From Kushneria konosiri (GTDB lineage Bacteria; Pseudomonadota; Gammaproteobacteria; Pseudomonadales; Halomonadaceae), in contig NZ_CP021323.1 in assembly GCF_002155145.1 (NCBI RefSeq), forward strand, positions 248,001-312,000: 64,000 bases of DNA. The letters run 5' to 3'. Shown piece after piece: positions 38,386 to 46,308 of the stretch. The notes below the pieces were generated by a model. It ran no database searches. It was given only the letters and a program-made list of their open reading frames with translations, and was not told where the DNA came from. Every line of letters starts with the position of its first letter. Position 1 is the first letter of the stretch. Made by a program: the position numbers and the translations under genes.

Positions 38386-39945
38386 ATGATCAAAAGAACC
38401 GCCATGAGACTGCGTACCACCATCCTGCTGACCATCATCTGCCCCCTGCTGCTAACGTTAATCACGTTCAGCGCAGTGGGGCTGTGGGTACTGGAAGACA
38501 ACATGCAAAAGCGTCAGCAGGAAGAGGTGCGACTGATTGCCCATGGGATACGCCTGCCCCTGACGCAGGCACTGACCCATCAAAACATACAGGCCCTGCA
38601 GGAAGGGTTGAGTACCACCTTTTCTCTTTCAAGGCTTTACGGCGCCTTCATCCTGTCCCCCTCGGGACAGCAGATTGCCGGCGTCGGCCTCGCCGGGGGC
38701 CTGCAGGACAAAAAGATGCTGCAGGGAGCCATCAGTAATGCCCGGGAGGCCGAAGGCTATTCGCAGCAGGGCGGGCAGAATTTTTATACCTATCTACTGC
38801 CGATGACAGATGCCGAGGGCAAGGTACTGGGCGTTTTGCAGATTAACCGTCTGGCCACCGGTATCGAGCGCTATATGAGCCTCATCACCACCGCGGCCCT
38901 GCTGCTGGCCGCTTTTGTAAGCATTCTGGTGGTGCTGTTGGTGTGGTGGGGATTTCACCGCTACGTGGACCGCCCGGTCAATCGGCTCTATCGCAGCATG
39001 AAGGCCGTTCAGGGTGGCAACCGCCGCCACCGCATGACACCCGGCGGCGCCCGGGAATTTCACGAACTTGGCGAGGCCTTCAACGCCATGCTTGACGCCA
39101 TGGCCAGCAAGGAGCGGGAAGCTCACGAACAGCAACACCAGCAGCTCGCGCTGGAGCGCAGCTTGAAGAAATCGCGACGGCTGGCTGAAATCGGCGTGCT
39201 GGCCGCAGGCGTGGCACATGAACTCGGCTCACCGCTGACGGTCATCGATGGACAGGTTCAGCGCCTGCAGCGCCGCGACGACCTGCCTGACGACGCTCGC
39301 CAGCGTCTGGTACGCATTCGCCGTGAAACCCGACGCATGGAGTTGACCATTCGCCAGCTGATGGACATGGGCCGGCGTCATACACTGCAGCCGCGTCAGC
39401 ACTCGCTGCAACACATGATCGATGAGGCCGAGCGGCTGGCGCGCGAGGCCCTGAATCTTGAACATGCGCACCCTCTGCTTGAAACGCATCTTCCGGAAAA
39501 GGATGCCCTTACCGTCGATCGACAGCGCTTTCAGCAGCTGCTCGACAATCTGATCAAAAATGCCTTTCAGGCCGGCAGCCAAAAGGTCGTCATTTCAGCG
39601 CAATACTCGGCCACAGGCGTGGTACTTCGCATAGAAGACGACGGCCCGGGCGTTGAGGCTGAACACCACAGTCAGCTTTTCGACCCCTTCTACACCACGA
39701 AAGGCGCCGGCAAGGGGAGCGGTATGGGACTCACCATTGTTCACCGTGCGGTCGAAGATCATGGCGGTCATATCACACTGGAGGAGAGCTCGTCCGGCGG
39801 TGCAGCCTTTATCGTTACCCTGCCGCCCGAGACGCTGTTACCCCCTGACTCCATGACTGGCGATAGCGAAACGTCAAGGGGTATCGGTATGGAAGACTCA
39901 GACACCATGGAGGATGTCTTGCCACGGAAACACGGCCATGACTGA
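38386..39945 (+). CDS. Sensor histidine kinase
   Basis: This is a 519-residue membrane kinase. A membrane segment at about 9-33 and another at 165-190 enclose a periplasmic sensor of about 130 residues. HAMP (191-245), a dimerisation domain with phospho-accepting H278 in AHELGSPLT, and an ATPase domain with NLIKNAFQAG, EDDGPGV and GKGSGMGLTI follow. The last 35 residues are an acidic tail. Its stop overlaps the start of the response regulator (ATGACTGA), so the two form a cognate pair. The signal is unknown. The convergent acyltransferase is the best target candidate from its promoter. Confidence 0.93.
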   Translation: MIKRTAMRLRTTILLTIICPLLLTLITFSAVGLWVLEDNMQKRQQEEVRLIAHGIRLPLTQALTHQNIQALQEGLSTTFSLSRLYGAFILSPSGQQIAGVGLAGGLQDKKMLQGAISNAREAEGYSQQGGQNFYTYLLPMTDAEGKVLGVLQINRLATGIERYMSLITTAALLLAAFVSILVVLLVWWGFHRYVDRPVNRLYRSMKAVQGGNRRHRMTPGGAREFHELGEAFNAMLDAMASKEREAHEQQHQQLALERSLKKSRRLAEIGVLAAGVAHELGSPLTVIDGQVQRLQRRDDLPDDARQRLVRIRRETRRMELTIRQLMDMGRRHTLQPRQHSLQHMIDEAERLAREALNLEHAHPLLETHLPEKDALTVDRQRFQQLLDNLIKNAFQAGSQKVVISAQYSATGVVLRIEDDGPGVEAEHHSQLFDPFYTTKGAGKGSGMGLTIVHRAVEDHGGHITLEESSSGGAAFIVTLPPETLLPPDSMTGDSETSRGIGMEDSDTMEDVLPRKHGHD

Positions 39946-41287
39946 TCAAATTCTGATTGTCGAGGATGATGCGGCCATTCTGGAGCTGCTTGTCGAGGAA
40001 CTCGAGGAAGCCGGCCACACTGTCACAGGCGTCGACAGCGCCGAGCAGGCCCTGACGCTGTCTGAGACAACGGCTTTTGATGTCATCATCAGCGATATTC
40101 GCCTGCCCGGCATGGATGGCATGACGCTGTTGGACACGCTGGCACAACAGCCCGACCACCCCGCCATGATCATCATTACCGCCTTTGGCAGTATCGAACA
40201 GGCCGTGGACGCGCTTCAGCGCGGCGCAGATGATTTCCTGACCAAGCCGCTGGACCTGGATCAGGTTCGTGCCAGCGTCGCCCGACTGGGCCGGCGTCGT
40301 GCATTAAAAACGCGCCAGCAGGCCAGCGAAACCCGCGACATCTTCCAGCTGGACGACATGACCAGCTGCACGCCGGCCATGTCCACCCTTTTTGACCAAG
40401 CCCGGCGCCTTGCCACACAGCAGGCCGCCGTATTGATTCAGGGCGAAAGCGGTACCGGTAAGGAGCTGATGGCCCGGGCCCTGCATCGGGAAAGCGCTCG
40501 CAGGGCAGGCCCGTTTGTGGCCGTCAATTGCGCCAGCATTGCGCCGGATGTCATGGAAAGCGAATGCTTCGGTCATGTCAGAGGGGCCTTTACAGGTGCC
40601 GTTGCGCATCGTCGCGGCCTATTCCAGCAGGCCCATGGCGGCACGCTCTTTCTCGACGAGATCGGTGACATGCCGCTCGCCCTGCAGGCCAAACTGCTGC
40701 GCGTACTGCAAACACACTGCGTCCGGCCTGTGGGCAGTGAAGAGGAACAACAGGTCGATATTCGTATCGTGGCGGCGACCAACCGCCCCCTTTTGGAACT
40801 CATCGAGGCGGGGCTTTTCCGCGAAGACCTGTTCTACCGGCTTGAAACCTTCAGCCTGACGTTGCCACCACTACGGGAGCGCCCCGACGACATCGCCCTG
40901 CTGGCCGAGCACTTTATCGAGCGCTACCGCCGAGAGCAAAGACGAGACATCATGATCCTGTCGCCGTCAGCGCTATCGCTGCTATGGGCCTATCCCTTCC
41001 CCGGCAATGTGCGGGAACTGGACAATGCCATTTTGCGCGCCGTTACCCTGGCGCGAACGGACGCTCTCGAACCCGACGATTTTCCCGAACGCTTTCGACA
41101 GACCGTGACTGCCAGAGAGAGCCATGACACCCAGGCGCAGGCGTGGCTCAGCCTCGAGCAGATGGAGCAGCGCTATATCCGGCGTGTGCTTGACGCCGTC
41201 GACGGCAACAAGCGACGTGCCGCCGAGATACTGGGGATCGGCCGCAAGACGCTTTATCGTCGTCTGGAAGAGCGCGAGTCGCCCTGA
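39938..41287 (+). CDS. NtrC-family sigma-54-dependent response regulator
   Basis: This 449-residue regulator has a receiver domain (phospho-acceptor D53 in ISDIRLPGMDG, K103 in TKPLD), an AAA+ domain (Walker A GESGTGKE 169-176, the sigma-54 contact loop GAFTGA 216-221, GTLFLDEIGDMP, RLETFSLTLPPLRER, FPGNVREL) and a C-terminal Fis-type helix-turn-helix (NKRRAAEILGIGRKTLYRRL). All parts needed to drive sigma-54 promoters are intact. It overlaps the kinase gene by eight bases. Its stop lies 28 bases from the stop of the convergent acyltransferase, whose promoter region carries a sigma-54 site and three inverted repeats. Confidence 0.95.
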   Translation: MTDQILIVEDDAAILELLVEELEEAGHTVTGVDSAEQALTLSETTAFDVIISDIRLPGMDGMTLLDTLAQQPDHPAMIIITAFGSIEQAVDALQRGADDFLTKPLDLDQVRASVARLGRRRALKTRQQASETRDIFQLDDMTSCTPAMSTLFDQARRLATQQAAVLIQGESGTGKELMARALHRESARRAGPFVAVNCASIAPDVMESECFGHVRGAFTGAVAHRRGLFQQAHGGTLFLDEIGDMPLALQAKLLRVLQTHCVRPVGSEEEQQVDIRIVAATNRPLLELIEAGLFREDLFYRLETFSLTLPPLRERPDDIALLAEHFIERYRREQRRDIMILSPSALSLLWAYPFPGNVRELDNAILRAVTLARTDALEPDDFPERFRQTVTARESHDTQAQAWLSLEQMEQRYIRRVLDAVDGNKRRAAEILGIGRKTLYRRLEERESP

Positions 41288-41315
41288 CGCATCACCGTGA
41301 TTACAGGACACGTCA

Positions 41316-42350
41316 TCAGGACCAGCTGGAGGCCAGCGCAGGATCCTTTTGGCGTTTCTCGCAGCGTCTGGCACGCCGCTCGGAAAGCACGGCGGGGTCT
41401 CCCAGACACAGGAGCCTTGTCCAGCCGTTGTGACGCACCAGCAGATAAAACAGAACCGGCAGCGCCGTCATCAAAAGCCAGCGTGGCGCCAGCGCCTCCA
41501 GCAGCCCATGATGGTCAAGCGTGACCTGAATGCTCAGATGCAAAAACATGATCACCATTGACGCCTCTCCCACCAGCCCCACGACTCTGGCCACTATCGG
41601 CATACGCGCCAGCTGATGCGATAGCGCCATAAGTACCAGTGTGACGGCAAACGCTGCCAGCAGACTCAATACCGGCATTCCGTAATCGGCATACTTCATG
41701 TCCATGGTGAAATGTGGATAGCCGTGTACACACCACATCGCCAGCACGCTGGCCCCGGCACTCAGCAGCAGCACACGCGGTCTTTCCACATCGATCCGAT
41801 AATGAGCGACCAGATACCCCAGATAGAAACAGGGCGCGGCCATGAGCACCACGTTGAGGTTACCGATCAGCCAGAGCTCACTGAAAAGGGACTGATTCAC
41901 TGCCGCAAGCCCCAGCATGCTCAGCATGATAGTGCTTGTGGTTCGCAACGACAGTCGCGTCAGCAGCACATTGACCAGCTGCTGTGTAGCCCAGAAGCAG
42001 GTCACGAACCAGAACGGTGACAGGTTTGAAATCAGATCGCGCCCGCCTAGCACCATGGCCATTAACGCACTGGAAAGCGATGTTTCATTGCCCAGCGCCT
42101 GATAGAGGGTTGGCGCGTACAAAAGCGCCATGAAAAAACCATAGGGCACCAGCAGGTGAAGGCTCTTGCGGCGAAGGTAGGCCCCGAGATCGACGTTGGG
42201 CCTGAAAAGATAGCCGGCAATGATAAAAAAAAGTGGCATGTGAAAAAGAAAGAAAAAATCCCGAACGAATCCGGACGTCATGTGGGCGTACACCACCATC
42301 ATGATGCCGAGTCCTTTCAGAATGTTGATCCATTCAAGCTTTTTAACCAT
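41316..42350 (-). CDS. Membrane acyltransferase, acyltransferase-3 family, predicted sigma-54-dependent
   Basis: This 344-residue protein has about ten membrane segments. The N-terminal WINILKGLGIMMVVYAHM holds the family Lys/His region and MPLFFIIAGYLF the second hallmark. It probably transfers an acyl (often acetyl) group to a cell-surface sugar or lipid; the acceptor is unknown. The C-terminal 30 residues are basic and cytoplasmic. It is convergent with the two-component pair, and its upstream region has a -24/-12 promoter at 42389-42405 and activator-type repeats at 42501-42561. The ATG lacks a well-placed ribosome site, which could limit translation. Confidence 0.85.
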   Translation of the reverse strand: MVKKLEWINILKGLGIMMVVYAHMTSGFVRDFFFLFHMPLFFIIAGYLFRPNVDLGAYLRRKSLHLLVPYGFFMALLYAPTLYQALGNETSLSSALMAMVLGGRDLISNLSPFWFVTCFWATQQLVNVLLTRLSLRTTSTIMLSMLGLAAVNQSLFSELWLIGNLNVVLMAAPCFYLGYLVAHYRIDVERPRVLLLSAGASVLAMWCVHGYPHFTMDMKYADYGMPVLSLLAAFAVTLVLMALSHQLARMPIVARVVGLVGEASMVIMFLHLSIQVTLDHHGLLEALAPRWLLMTALPVLFYLLVRHNGWTRLLCLGDPAVLSERRARRCEKRQKDPALASSWS

Positions 42351-42388
42351 GGGCAGTCGCTGTCCGTTGTCGTCCTTTTACAGACAGG

Positions 42389-42405
42389 AGCAACTAACAT
42401 GCCAA
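42389..42405 (-). promoter_or_regulatory. Predicted sigma-54 (-24/-12) promoter
   Basis: The minus strand reads TTGGCATGTTAGTTGCT. GG and GC are separated by the required ten bases, and it agrees with TTGGCACG-N4-TTGCT at all but one of the specified bases. Transcription would start near 42378, 28 bases before the acyltransferase ATG. An NtrC-type activator is encoded next to that gene. Confidence 0.75.
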
Positions 42406-42421
42406 CACGAACCACCGCGAC

Positions 42422-42454
42422 AAAAAAATTCAAGCTTTTGTTTTTTAAAAGCTT
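42422..42454. promoter_or_regulatory. AT-rich tract: ptsP terminator and/or bend between enhancer and promoter
   Basis: AAGCTTTT (42432-42439) and AAAAGCTT (42447-42454) form an 8-bp stem followed on the minus strand by seven T, so it may end ptsP transcription. The same tract contains ATTCAAGCTTTTG (42428-42440), one mismatch from an IHF site, and sits midway between the sigma-54 promoter and the repeats at 42501-42561, where bending is expected. Confidence 0.5.
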
Positions 42455-42500
42455 TTCCAAAACAGCCATCGCACTGATAGAACTGTCAGCAGGCAGGAAG

Positions 42501-42561
42501 ATGTGTCATGGAGACACATGGGTCACCATGACACACGAGTGGCAGGGGTCAAAACGACACA
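42501..42561. promoter_or_regulatory. Three tandem inverted repeats, predicted enhancer for the NtrC-type regulator
   Basis: Copy 1 is ATGTGTC-N5-GACACAT (42501-42519, perfect). Copy 2 is TGGGTC-N5-GACACA (42519-42535, one mismatch). Copy 3 is GGGGTC-N5-GACACA (42545-42561, two mismatches). All keep a five-base spacer. They lie about 100-170 bases upstream of the sigma-54 promoter, a normal enhancer distance. Confidence 0.7.
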
Positions 42562-42576
42562 CGTGAGTGCCCGCCA

Positions 42577-44838
42577 TCAGTCCCTGGGCGGCAATAGATG
42601 AGCCAGTTCCCACTCTTTCATGCGCTGATACACGAGCTCACGCGTTTCGGTCAGCGAATGCAGCGCCAGCACATCACTGACCAGATTCTGTGCACCTTCC
42701 ATCGATACGCGGCGGATGGCGGCGCGTACACGCGACAGATTGGGGGCATTCATCGACAGCACTCGATAGCCCATGCCCATCAATAAAAGCGCACCAATCG
42801 GGTCGCCCGCCAGCTCGCCACAGACCGAGGCGGACACGTTCAGACGCCGGCTTTCCCGTGCAATATGATCCAGCGCCCTGAGCACTGCCGGCTGACAGGC
42901 ATCATAAAGGCCGGAAACACGCGCGTTGTTGCGATCCACCGCCAGCAGATACTGGATCAGATCATTGCTGCCGACCGAGAAGAAATCCACGCGTGAGGCG
43001 AGCGCCTCAAGCTGATAGATCACGGCCGGCACTTCCAGCATCACGCCCAAAAGCGGACGCTCGACCTGAATGCCATCATCACGCAGCTCCTGGATAGCGC
43101 GATCCAGAAGACGGCAGACCGTATCGACCTCTTCAACACTGGTGACCATCGGCAGCAGAATCCGAAGATTATCCAGCCCCTCGGCTGCCCTGAGCATGGC
43201 CCGCAGCTGTACCATCAGCACTTCGGGATGATCCAGCGTCACCCGAATGCCACGCCAGCCCAGAAACGGGTTTTCTTCCTCGATGGGGAAATAGGGCAAG
43301 GATTTATCACCACCGATATCCAGCGTACGCATGACCACCGGCAGCGGCGCGAACCCCTGAAGCTGCTCGCGATAGATGCGCGTCTGTTCCTTCTCGCTGG
43401 GAAAACGCTGATGCATCATGAAGGGCACTTCGGTGCGATAGAGCCCTACACCGTCAATGCGCGCGGCAGGCGAGCCGCTCATTTCCACGGCAAGCCCCGT
43501 GTTGATCATCAGACGGATACGAAAGCCGTCGCTGGTTTCACTGGGCAGCGACTGCTCGCTTTCAAGCATCGAGGTAAGCGCTTCCTCCTCCTCGATCATG
43601 CTTTCGTAACGCACCAGCAGATCCGGCTGCGGGCGCAGAATCAGCCGCCCGCGATAGCCATCGACGATCATGGGGGTGCCCGCCAGCCGTGAGATGGGCA
43701 GATCATTCATGCCCATGACGGCAGGAATGCCCATCGCGCGCGCCAGAATTGCCACATGAGAGGTGCTCGAGCCACGCAGCGCTACCAGTCCCGCCAGTTT
43801 CTCGCGCGGGATTTCACCCAGCTGCGCGGCGCTGATCTCGTCCCCGACCAGAATGGTACGTTCGGGATAAACCGGCTTGCGAGTATCACTGTCCTTTTGC
43901 AGGTGGGCCAGCACGCGACGCCCAAGGTCGCGAATATCCGCGGCACGCTCGCGCAGGTAGTTATCATCCACGCGTTCGAGATAGTTGACGTGACGCTGCA
44001 CCACCCGTGCCAGCGCATAAGGCGCCCACTGCCCTTCCCGGATTCGCTTTTCGACTTCATTGCCCAGCGCAGCATCTCCCAGCATCTGCTGGTAGACATC
44101 AAACAGCGCCTGCTCCTGCGCCGAGATACGACTGGCCAGGCGCTCTGCGGCCTGTCGAATGTCATGACGCACGCAGTCGATGGCCTCACGCAGCCGCAGA
44201 ACCTCGGCCTCGATATCGTCGGGCACACGCTCGGGCACGGCCTCCAGGTTGGCCGAAGGCACCACCACAAAGGCTTCACCAATGGCCATCCCGGGCGCGG
44301 CCGCAATGCCGCTAAGCATGGCCTGGGTGCCGGGGTCGCTCAGTCGCGCCAGCGCACCGGTCGACAGGGCATGCACCAGCACACCAGCCAACTGGGCCGC
44401 CATGGTAATCAGAAAGGCTTCTTCACCTTCGCCGAACTGGCGTTTTTCACGCTGCTGTACGACCAGAACACCCAGCACGCGGCGCTGATGAATGATGGGA
44501 ACGCCAAGAAAGCTTGAATAGCGCTCCTCGCCGGTCTCGGCGAAGTAGCGAAAGTGGGAATGTGACGGTGCCTCCTCGATATTAAGAGGCTCTTCGCGCT
44601 GCCCGACAAGACCCACCAGTCCTTCCCCGGGCTTCAGGGTCACCTGACCAATGGCCGAGGCATTCAGACCAATGGTATCCATCAGGATAAAGCAGTCACG
44701 CTCGTCATCGCGCAGATAGACCGAGCAAACGTCGGTCTGCATTGCCTTGCGGATGCGCCGCACAATGATTGATAGCGCCGCATCCAGACTGCGGGCGCCG
44801 TTCACCTCCTGAACGATGCGGCGAAGAATCTCGAGCAT
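42577..44838 (-). CDS. ptsP: Phosphoenolpyruvate-protein phosphotransferase of the nitrogen PTS (EI-Ntr)
   Basis: This is a 753-residue enzyme. Residues 1-165 are a GAF domain, and the rest is PTS enzyme I: linker and HPr-like-binding helices, the phospho-His domain with H361 in LRGSSTSHVAIL, and a PEP-binding barrel (GLYRTEVPFM, RTLDIGGDKSLPYF, FFSVGSNDLIQYLLAVDR). It passes phosphate from PEP to NPr and then EIIA-Ntr, a signalling rather than sugar-transport route. It is downstream of rppH on the same strand with 79 bases between, as in many gammaproteobacteria. Confidence 0.97.
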   Translation of the reverse strand: MLEILRRIVQEVNGARSLDAALSIIVRRIRKAMQTDVCSVYLRDDERDCFILMDTIGLNASAIGQVTLKPGEGLVGLVGQREEPLNIEEAPSHSHFRYFAETGEERYSSFLGVPIIHQRRVLGVLVVQQREKRQFGEGEEAFLITMAAQLAGVLVHALSTGALARLSDPGTQAMLSGIAAAPGMAIGEAFVVVPSANLEAVPERVPDDIEAEVLRLREAIDCVRHDIRQAAERLASRISAQEQALFDVYQQMLGDAALGNEVEKRIREGQWAPYALARVVQRHVNYLERVDDNYLRERAADIRDLGRRVLAHLQKDSDTRKPVYPERTILVGDEISAAQLGEIPREKLAGLVALRGSSTSHVAILARAMGIPAVMGMNDLPISRLAGTPMIVDGYRGRLILRPQPDLLVRYESMIEEEEALTSMLESEQSLPSETSDGFRIRLMINTGLAVEMSGSPAARIDGVGLYRTEVPFMMHQRFPSEKEQTRIYREQLQGFAPLPVVMRTLDIGGDKSLPYFPIEEENPFLGWRGIRVTLDHPEVLMVQLRAMLRAAEGLDNLRILLPMVTSVEEVDTVCRLLDRAIQELRDDGIQVERPLLGVMLEVPAVIYQLEALASRVDFFSVGSNDLIQYLLAVDRNNARVSGLYDACQPAVLRALDHIARESRRLNVSASVCGELAGDPIGALLLMGMGYRVLSMNAPNLSRVRAAIRRVSMEGAQNLVSDVLALHSLTETRELVYQRMKEWELAHLLPPRD

Positions 44839-46291: not shown

Positions 46292-46308
46292 TGTGTCACT
46301 TTGACACC
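46292..46308. promoter_or_regulatory. Solitary TGTGTC-N5-GACACC inverted repeat
   Basis: TGTGTC (46292-46297), five bases, then GACACC (46303-46308) has the same design as the repeats at 42501-42561, here about 210 bases upstream of mqo. No sigma-54 promoter is visible between it and mqo. It may be a second target or chance. Confidence 0.35.

Follow-up and report, generated by a model that had tools for sequence, protein, structure and literature searches.

The kinase-regulator-acyltransferase locus

In Kushneria konosiri, genes for a sensor histidine kinase and an NtrC-type σ54 activator lie convergent to a gene encoding a divergent AT3 acyltransferase, which is preceded by a -24/-12 promoter box and three palindromic sites. 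The DNA analysed is a stretch of 64,000 nucleotides (contig NZ_CP021323.1, positions 248,001 to 312,000; hereafter the window, numbered from its first letter) belonging to a genome of 3,584,631 bp in one contig that carries one rpoN gene. An initial annotation of this window had proposed a self-contained σ54 circuit, and here we describe a computational analysis of its components, their conservation and their relatives in other genera and families. The locus comprises the following features:

38386-39945, + strand: sensor histidine kinase; two membrane helices flanking a predicted Cache/PAS-like periplasmic domain, then HAMP, HisKA and HATPase_c
39938-41287, + strand: NtrC-type σ54 activator; receiver, AAA+ domain with GAFTGA, Fis-type helix-turn-helix (HTH)
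41316-42350, - strand: divergent AT3 (PF01757) integral-membrane acyltransferase, the proposed output gene; K12-X10-H23, no RXXR
42389-42405, - strand: -24/-12 σ54 promoter box TTGGCATGTTAGTTGCT, an exact match to TGGCAYRNNNNTTGCW; start expected near 42378
42420-42465, unstranded: AT-rich tract separating the operators from the promoter, conserved in part
42502-42518, unstranded: activator site 1, exact TGTGTC-N5-GACACA, with 107 bp between its centre and the GG of the -24 element
42519-42535, unstranded: activator site 2, one mismatch, abutting site 1
42545-42561, unstranded: activator site 3, two mismatches, the least conserved of the three

Coordinates, strands and Pfam domains bear out the kinase, NtrC-type regulator and convergent acyltransferase of the initial annotation. 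In the kinase, boxes H, N, G1 and G2 are all intact. Its periplasmic part was modelled on six near-identical Kushneria sequences, which allows modest confidence (mean predicted local distance difference test score, pLDDT, 68.3; 70-88 by block across residues 41-160), and the best crystal-structure matches of the model are KinD, WalK and CitA domains (E from 1.7e-6, TMt 0.41-0.78). Pfam returned no Cache match in the kinase, and with modest confidence we assign this part to a Cache/PAS-like domain between the two membrane helices. The regulator, for which the list of open reading frames (ORFs) includes a further upstream ATG at 39914, retains the intact GAFTGA (residue 216) and Fis-type DNA-binding end noted previously, together with Walker A, Walker B and the phospho-acceptor region. 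It exceeds the Pfam cut-offs for PF00072, PF00158 and PF02954, the domains of σ54 enhancer-binding response regulators of the NtrC class. Identification as AtoC, NtrC, ZraR or GlrR is ruled out by the NCBIfam equivalog cut-offs (441.5 of 714, 413.5 of 558.6, 348.8 of 760 and 363.9 of 763, respectively), and no family reached its NCBIfam cut-off among the matches listed (25 of the 123 matched).

The exact GG-N10-GC of the promoter box had been read correctly: TTGGCATGTTAGTTGCT is a perfect consensus match and the sole exact match to TGGCAYRNNNNTTGCW in the window, and the whole genome holds 8 such matches, compared with 0 forward and 2 reverse matches to a reversed-pattern control. Among the matches listed, which do not cover the box at 3522151, no operator match lies near the other 7 boxes. 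The three palindromes, whose half-sites are spaced as in NtrC sites, lie 97-156 bp beyond the box, and the AT-rich tract in between is one that we take, going by the IHF consensus, to be a candidate IHF bend. All three of the previously described TGTGTC-N5-GACACA repeats are present as N5 palindromes, with the exact sequence only at 42502-42518. Degenerate matches to the palindrome, with up to 2 or 3 mismatches, occur at chance level both in the window (24 found, 24.2 expected) and in the genome (64, versus 61 in the control). The signal is local, in that the single exact palindrome of the genome abuts one of its three one-mismatch copies. Although degenerate matches are at chance, chance is ruled out as the origin of the repeats by an exact copy that is both unique in the genome and conserved.

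Conservation of the switch in Kushneria and the site at mqo

Ten Kushneria genomes were compared, of which seven are kinase-positive (the window's own and six others, whose control regions were aligned) and three kinase-negative. Conservation was measured as the mean share of rows holding the commonest base per column, at the sites and box versus the other 159 columns of the gap. This share is 94% at site 1, 92% at site 2, 86% at site 3 and 95% at the box, versus 68% in the rest of the gap, so that the loss of repeats and box from genomes keeping all three genes, one of the two outcomes on which the initial annotation had said its prediction would fall, is not what is observed. Site 1 is exact in 6/7 genomes and has one mismatch in the seventh (G015), and site 2 has one mismatch in five and two in the remaining two. 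Site 3 has 2-3 mismatches wherever cleanly aligned; the G015 row carries an insertion inside it, and a direct scan of that genome placed a two-mismatch palindrome there.

The exact palindrome occurs once per genome, always upstream of the acyltransferase, in six of the seven kinase-positive Kushneria, and in none of the three kinase-negative ones; G015, the remaining kinase-positive genome, has one-mismatch palindromes only. Counts of palindromes with at most one mismatch, against a backwards-pattern control, are 4/5 (the window's own genome), 4/2, 7/1, 7/4, 8/3, 6/1 and 6/3 in the kinase-positive genomes and 2/2, 1/4 and 2/0 in the kinase-negative ones. Across 201 genomes of the family, the acyltransferase is found in nine, namely 7/10 Kushneria, one genome of another genus (G003) and G017. 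The sensor half of the kinase is found in 86, which include the same seven Kushneria and G003 and exclude G017 and the other three Kushneria. In the latter three, none of the three genes of the module lies between lgt and ptsP, the only interval in which the regulator was sought. At two loci (L089 and L090) about 0.9-1.0 kb of different sequence stands between lgt and ptsP at the place of the module; at a third (L088) the gap is about 135 bp.

The five named loci with the acyltransferase are all from Kushneria, at 79-84% identity. G003 is the sole carrier among the 18 genomes of its genus, and shows the same convergent arrangement, a high-scoring operator and, immediately before the acyltransferase gene, an exact box. 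At E 1e-15, relatives of the acyltransferase were confined to Kushneria and G003 (four genomes) among 293 genomes of the order, and to the window's own genome among 369 of the class.

A further conserved copy of the operator lies outside the module:

46292-46308, unstranded: operator-like palindrome TGTGTCACTTTGACACC in front of mqo, immediately past a TATAAT; candidate second target

This palindrome is present in 7/7 kinase-positive Kushneria, in one of them with two mismatches. In the three kinase-negative genomes, no palindrome with two or fewer mismatches was found between the HAD gene and mqo, where the TATAAT is likewise present. Since the site stands just past TATAAT and no σ54 box was seen at it, the regulator may block or modulate a σ70 promoter of mqo. 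Relatedness may also play a part, as the species without the kinase are more distant (ptsP identity 78-86%, versus 98-99% in the two kinase-positive relatives compared), so that shared ancestry could explain the distribution of the mqo site. The circuit itself is supported, but "self-contained" describes it too narrowly given this second conserved operator. Elsewhere in the genome, at 2229398 (L004 1501-1517), a one-mismatch palindrome overlaps the start codon of a permease gene, with no σ54-like match of two or fewer mismatches nearby; similar sequences occur in G097, G050 and G061.

Related regulators beside other genes

Relatives of the pair were followed into other families of the order (19 genomes with a kinase match, 12 loci taken) and into the family's other genera, termed Halomonas-like in what follows (neither Kushneria nor that of G003; 31 loci read of 78 kinase-matching genomes). 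Similarity, gene order and the kinase tree suggest that these pairs are orthologues of the one in the window. At the 12 other-family loci, the small genes beside the pair looked alike and were picked by eye before the Pfam step. The nine proteins assigned by Pfam, from 9/12 loci (L129-L132, L134-L137 and L139; the neighbours in L128, L133 and L138 are not among them), all score above the cut-off for DUF4168, and their genes mostly have an operator and a σ54-like box.

The 260 bp upstream of these nine genes were subjected to a motif-free search that combined all 4096 six-base half-sites with 11 spacings (2-12). The best results were TGTGCC and TGTGTC, both with N5 (GTGCCA with N3 being the same site read one base inward), with 16 summed mismatches versus minima of 28-30 in 20 mononucleotide-shuffled sets. 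The operator recovered beside these relatives reads TGTG(T/C)C-N5-G(A/G)CACA, and because a search free of any motif found it beside relatives of the same pair, it very probably belongs to the regulator of the window. A matrix was also built from the nine upstream sites, which, unlike the motif-free search, were placed with the degenerate pattern; among the approximately 64,000 positions of the window, this matrix placed 46292 at the top, 42502 and 42519 in second and third place and 42545 in seventh. The distance from operator centre to promoter is 75-119 bp at the DUF4168 source loci and 107 bp in the window. The recognition region of the HTH is alike across families, reading NKRR..A..LGI(G/A/S)R(K/R)TLYR in most of 45 rows, which do not include G416, G239 and G307. 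The oddest sites accompany two regulators with LGVTRRTLYR, G455 (best operator with three mismatches) and G378 (TGTATC-N5-GATACA), a hint that this variant may go with deviating operators; the operator of the G259 regulator (LGVNRRTLYR) has two mismatches. DUF4168 itself is found in all ten Kushneria (18 matches), and these genes were considered as further targets; in the ten loci examined (L140-L149, the best match per genome of the 18) no conserved operator-promoter pair was seen, and that role is not supported.

At the Halomonas-like loci a relative of the acyltransferase stands beside the pair in 0/31, and a convergent small gene with a lipobox and an acidic-looking tail in 23/31. Outside these 23, L061 encodes another protein in its lipobox ORF, L057 and L081 carry an acidic, signal-peptide-like ORF lacking a lipobox, no such small ORF was flagged in L068, L073 or L076, and L093 and L094 end near the regulator. 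Small acidic, Met/Pro-rich lipoproteins convergent with the pair are seen across L058-L087, and the three checked against Pfam (L058, L063 and L064) gave no match over the cut-off. All 20 aligned loci contain an ATGTGTC or ATGTGCC block, with a -24/-12-like box downstream whose -12 part is weak in genus g11. In 26/31 loci, a correctly oriented box-like sequence is found 91-141 bp from one of the three best matrix sites, as judged with a loose box-like pattern and without a shuffled control.

The regulator-operator-promoter cassette appears to be older than its acyltransferase target: with DUF4168 in other families and an acidic lipoprotein in other genera, the switch looks old and its outputs differ. 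We consider it somewhat more probable than the converse that one cassette was inherited across several families of the order while its output was exchanged between unrelated envelope proteins, namely DUF4168 proteins, acidic lipoproteins and, in Kushneria and G003, the AT3 acyltransferase. In the kinase tree, the order in which Kushneria, G003 and the lipoprotein-linked group branch is not settled (94/77, long branches). If the exchange is real, the sensed condition would be the conserved part of the system and the response its replaceable part, and DUF4168 would acquire both a regulator and a signal that induces it.

The proposed circuit, its alternatives and known systems

We propose that a signal outside the inner membrane would be sensed by the Cache-like domain of the kinase, which would then phosphorylate the regulator. 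The regulator would bind the three sites of TGTGTC-N5-GACACA type ahead of the acyltransferase gene and contact RpoN-containing RNA polymerase at the -24/-12 box, the DNA looping over the AT-rich tract; transcription would start and the enzyme be made on demand, most likely to move an acyl group from acyl-CoA onto an exported envelope glycan. We place the probability of this whole circuit, from signal to glycan acylation, at about 0.77, judging from sequence comparison. Of the signal-dependent, σ54-driven acylation of a surface molecule in the initial annotation, the circuit is supported by conservation and by motif-free recovery of the operator, and the surface acylation is the weaker part, the AT3 motifs being altered.

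Several observations weigh against the circuit. Palindromes with one mismatch show no enrichment in the window's own genome (4 versus 5 in the control), sites 2 and 3 are degenerate, site 3 having three mismatches in three other Kushneria, and the best-scoring operator of the window is the mqo site rather than those of the acyltransferase. The operator-promoter pair was not found in 5/31 Halomonas-like loci (L061, L083, L085 and the truncated L093 and L094), and the best operator of G455 is poor. The acyltransferase lacks the textbook R-X10-H and RXXR, and its relative in G017 occurs with no kinase match, so that enzymes of this family can occur apart from the circuit.

The acylation step would follow from the known behaviour of AT3 proteins, as set out in parts of PMC9558356 and PMC9833829, and is weakened by the alteration of both motifs. 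The strongest alternative, which we regard as possible though well short of even odds, is that the circuit operates as proposed and the membrane protein has a different substrate, or no longer carries out AT3 chemistry, with no acylation of a surface glycan. A section of PMC9833829 gives R-X10-H and RXXR as the canonical AT3 motifs. In the first transmembrane helix (TMH1), the Kushneria and G003 enzymes have K12-X10-H23 in place of R-X10-H, which the G017 relative retains, and no RXXR, placed in AT3 proteins at the cytoplasmic face of TMH3, was found by eye around the stretch RKSLHLLVPY, whose helix assignment is assumed. The protein also has no NCBIfam match at E 0.001 and no related solved structure by sequence, the single match being unrelated (E 0.8); its structure model (mean pLDDT 44.5) is too poor for assessment of the ten-helix AT3 fold or for a structure search. 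Against loss of function, the match to PF01757 is well above the cut-off (73.2 bits against 31; 2.7e-20), and the TMH1 histidine is invariant in 9/9 aligned acyltransferase sequences, with the basic residue always K or R.

It is unlikely that the acyltransferase is expressed mainly by read-through from nudH-ptsP, the σ54 box adding little. Read-through is possible, given that ptsP, on the same strand, ends 226 bp upstream and that a search of 42300-42700 showed no terminator pattern. However, conservation in the gap is concentrated in the operators and the box, no σ70-like promoter pattern was found in 42300-42700, and at L055, L057, L058 and L063, where ptsP was not found, this cassette stands before other genes. 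Least probable of all is a genuine σ54 promoter whose palindromes are bound by another enhancer-binding protein of the genome: σ54 activators often share site geometry and a 17-bp N5-spaced palindrome is that of NtrC-class sites, but the motif tracks relatives of this regulator into other families and its exact form is absent from 3/3 Kushneria that lack the kinase.

A two-component σ54 pair with a neighbouring target is of a known kind, so the proposed circuit adds no new mechanism. Its new elements are an operator defined for a regulator that reaches none of the named equivalogs among the matches listed, an AT3 acyltransferase as the probable target of such a regulator, and a DNA switch that stays the same in front of differing genes. 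The last of these makes it possible to ask which signal is shared, and the DUF4168 genes of other families also acquire a regulator that can be tested. It is the apparent exchange of outputs, with the switch conserved, that merits following up. We found nothing on this module in the open-access library searched, and the word DUF4168 was not found in that search.

The 17-bp N5 palindromes about 100 bp upstream of a -24/-12 box resemble the NtrB-NtrC system, whose enhancer sites share this form and differ in half-site from the TGTGTC/TGTGCC of the window and its relatives, in agreement with the initial reading of an NtrC-like five-base spacer and a different half-site. The module also resembles ZraS-ZraR-ZraP, in which an NtrC-type two-component pair switches a cell-envelope gene via σ54. 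The zraP and zraSR genes are divergent, whereas the Kushneria module is convergent; its regulator falls far below the ZraR cut-off, as below those of AtoC, NtrC and GlrR, and its output is an acyltransferase, unlike the chaperone of the Zra system. In Escherichia coli, according to parts of PMC7657598, that system has very few direct targets (zraSR, zraP and mgtA). With OafB and NolL the Kushneria enzyme shares the PF01757 profile and the invariant TMH1 histidine; it differs from such AT3 enzymes in having Lys for the conserved Arg and no RXXR, and from OafB in that Pfam found no SGNH domain. Francke et al. (2011; PMC3162934), in whose main text the terms acyltransferase, acetyltransferase and Chromohalobacter were not found, argue that σ54 governs the bacterial exterior. 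That thesis fits the present outputs, since the acyltransferase, the lipoprotein and the DUF4168 protein, with its signal-peptide-like start, all look like envelope proteins.

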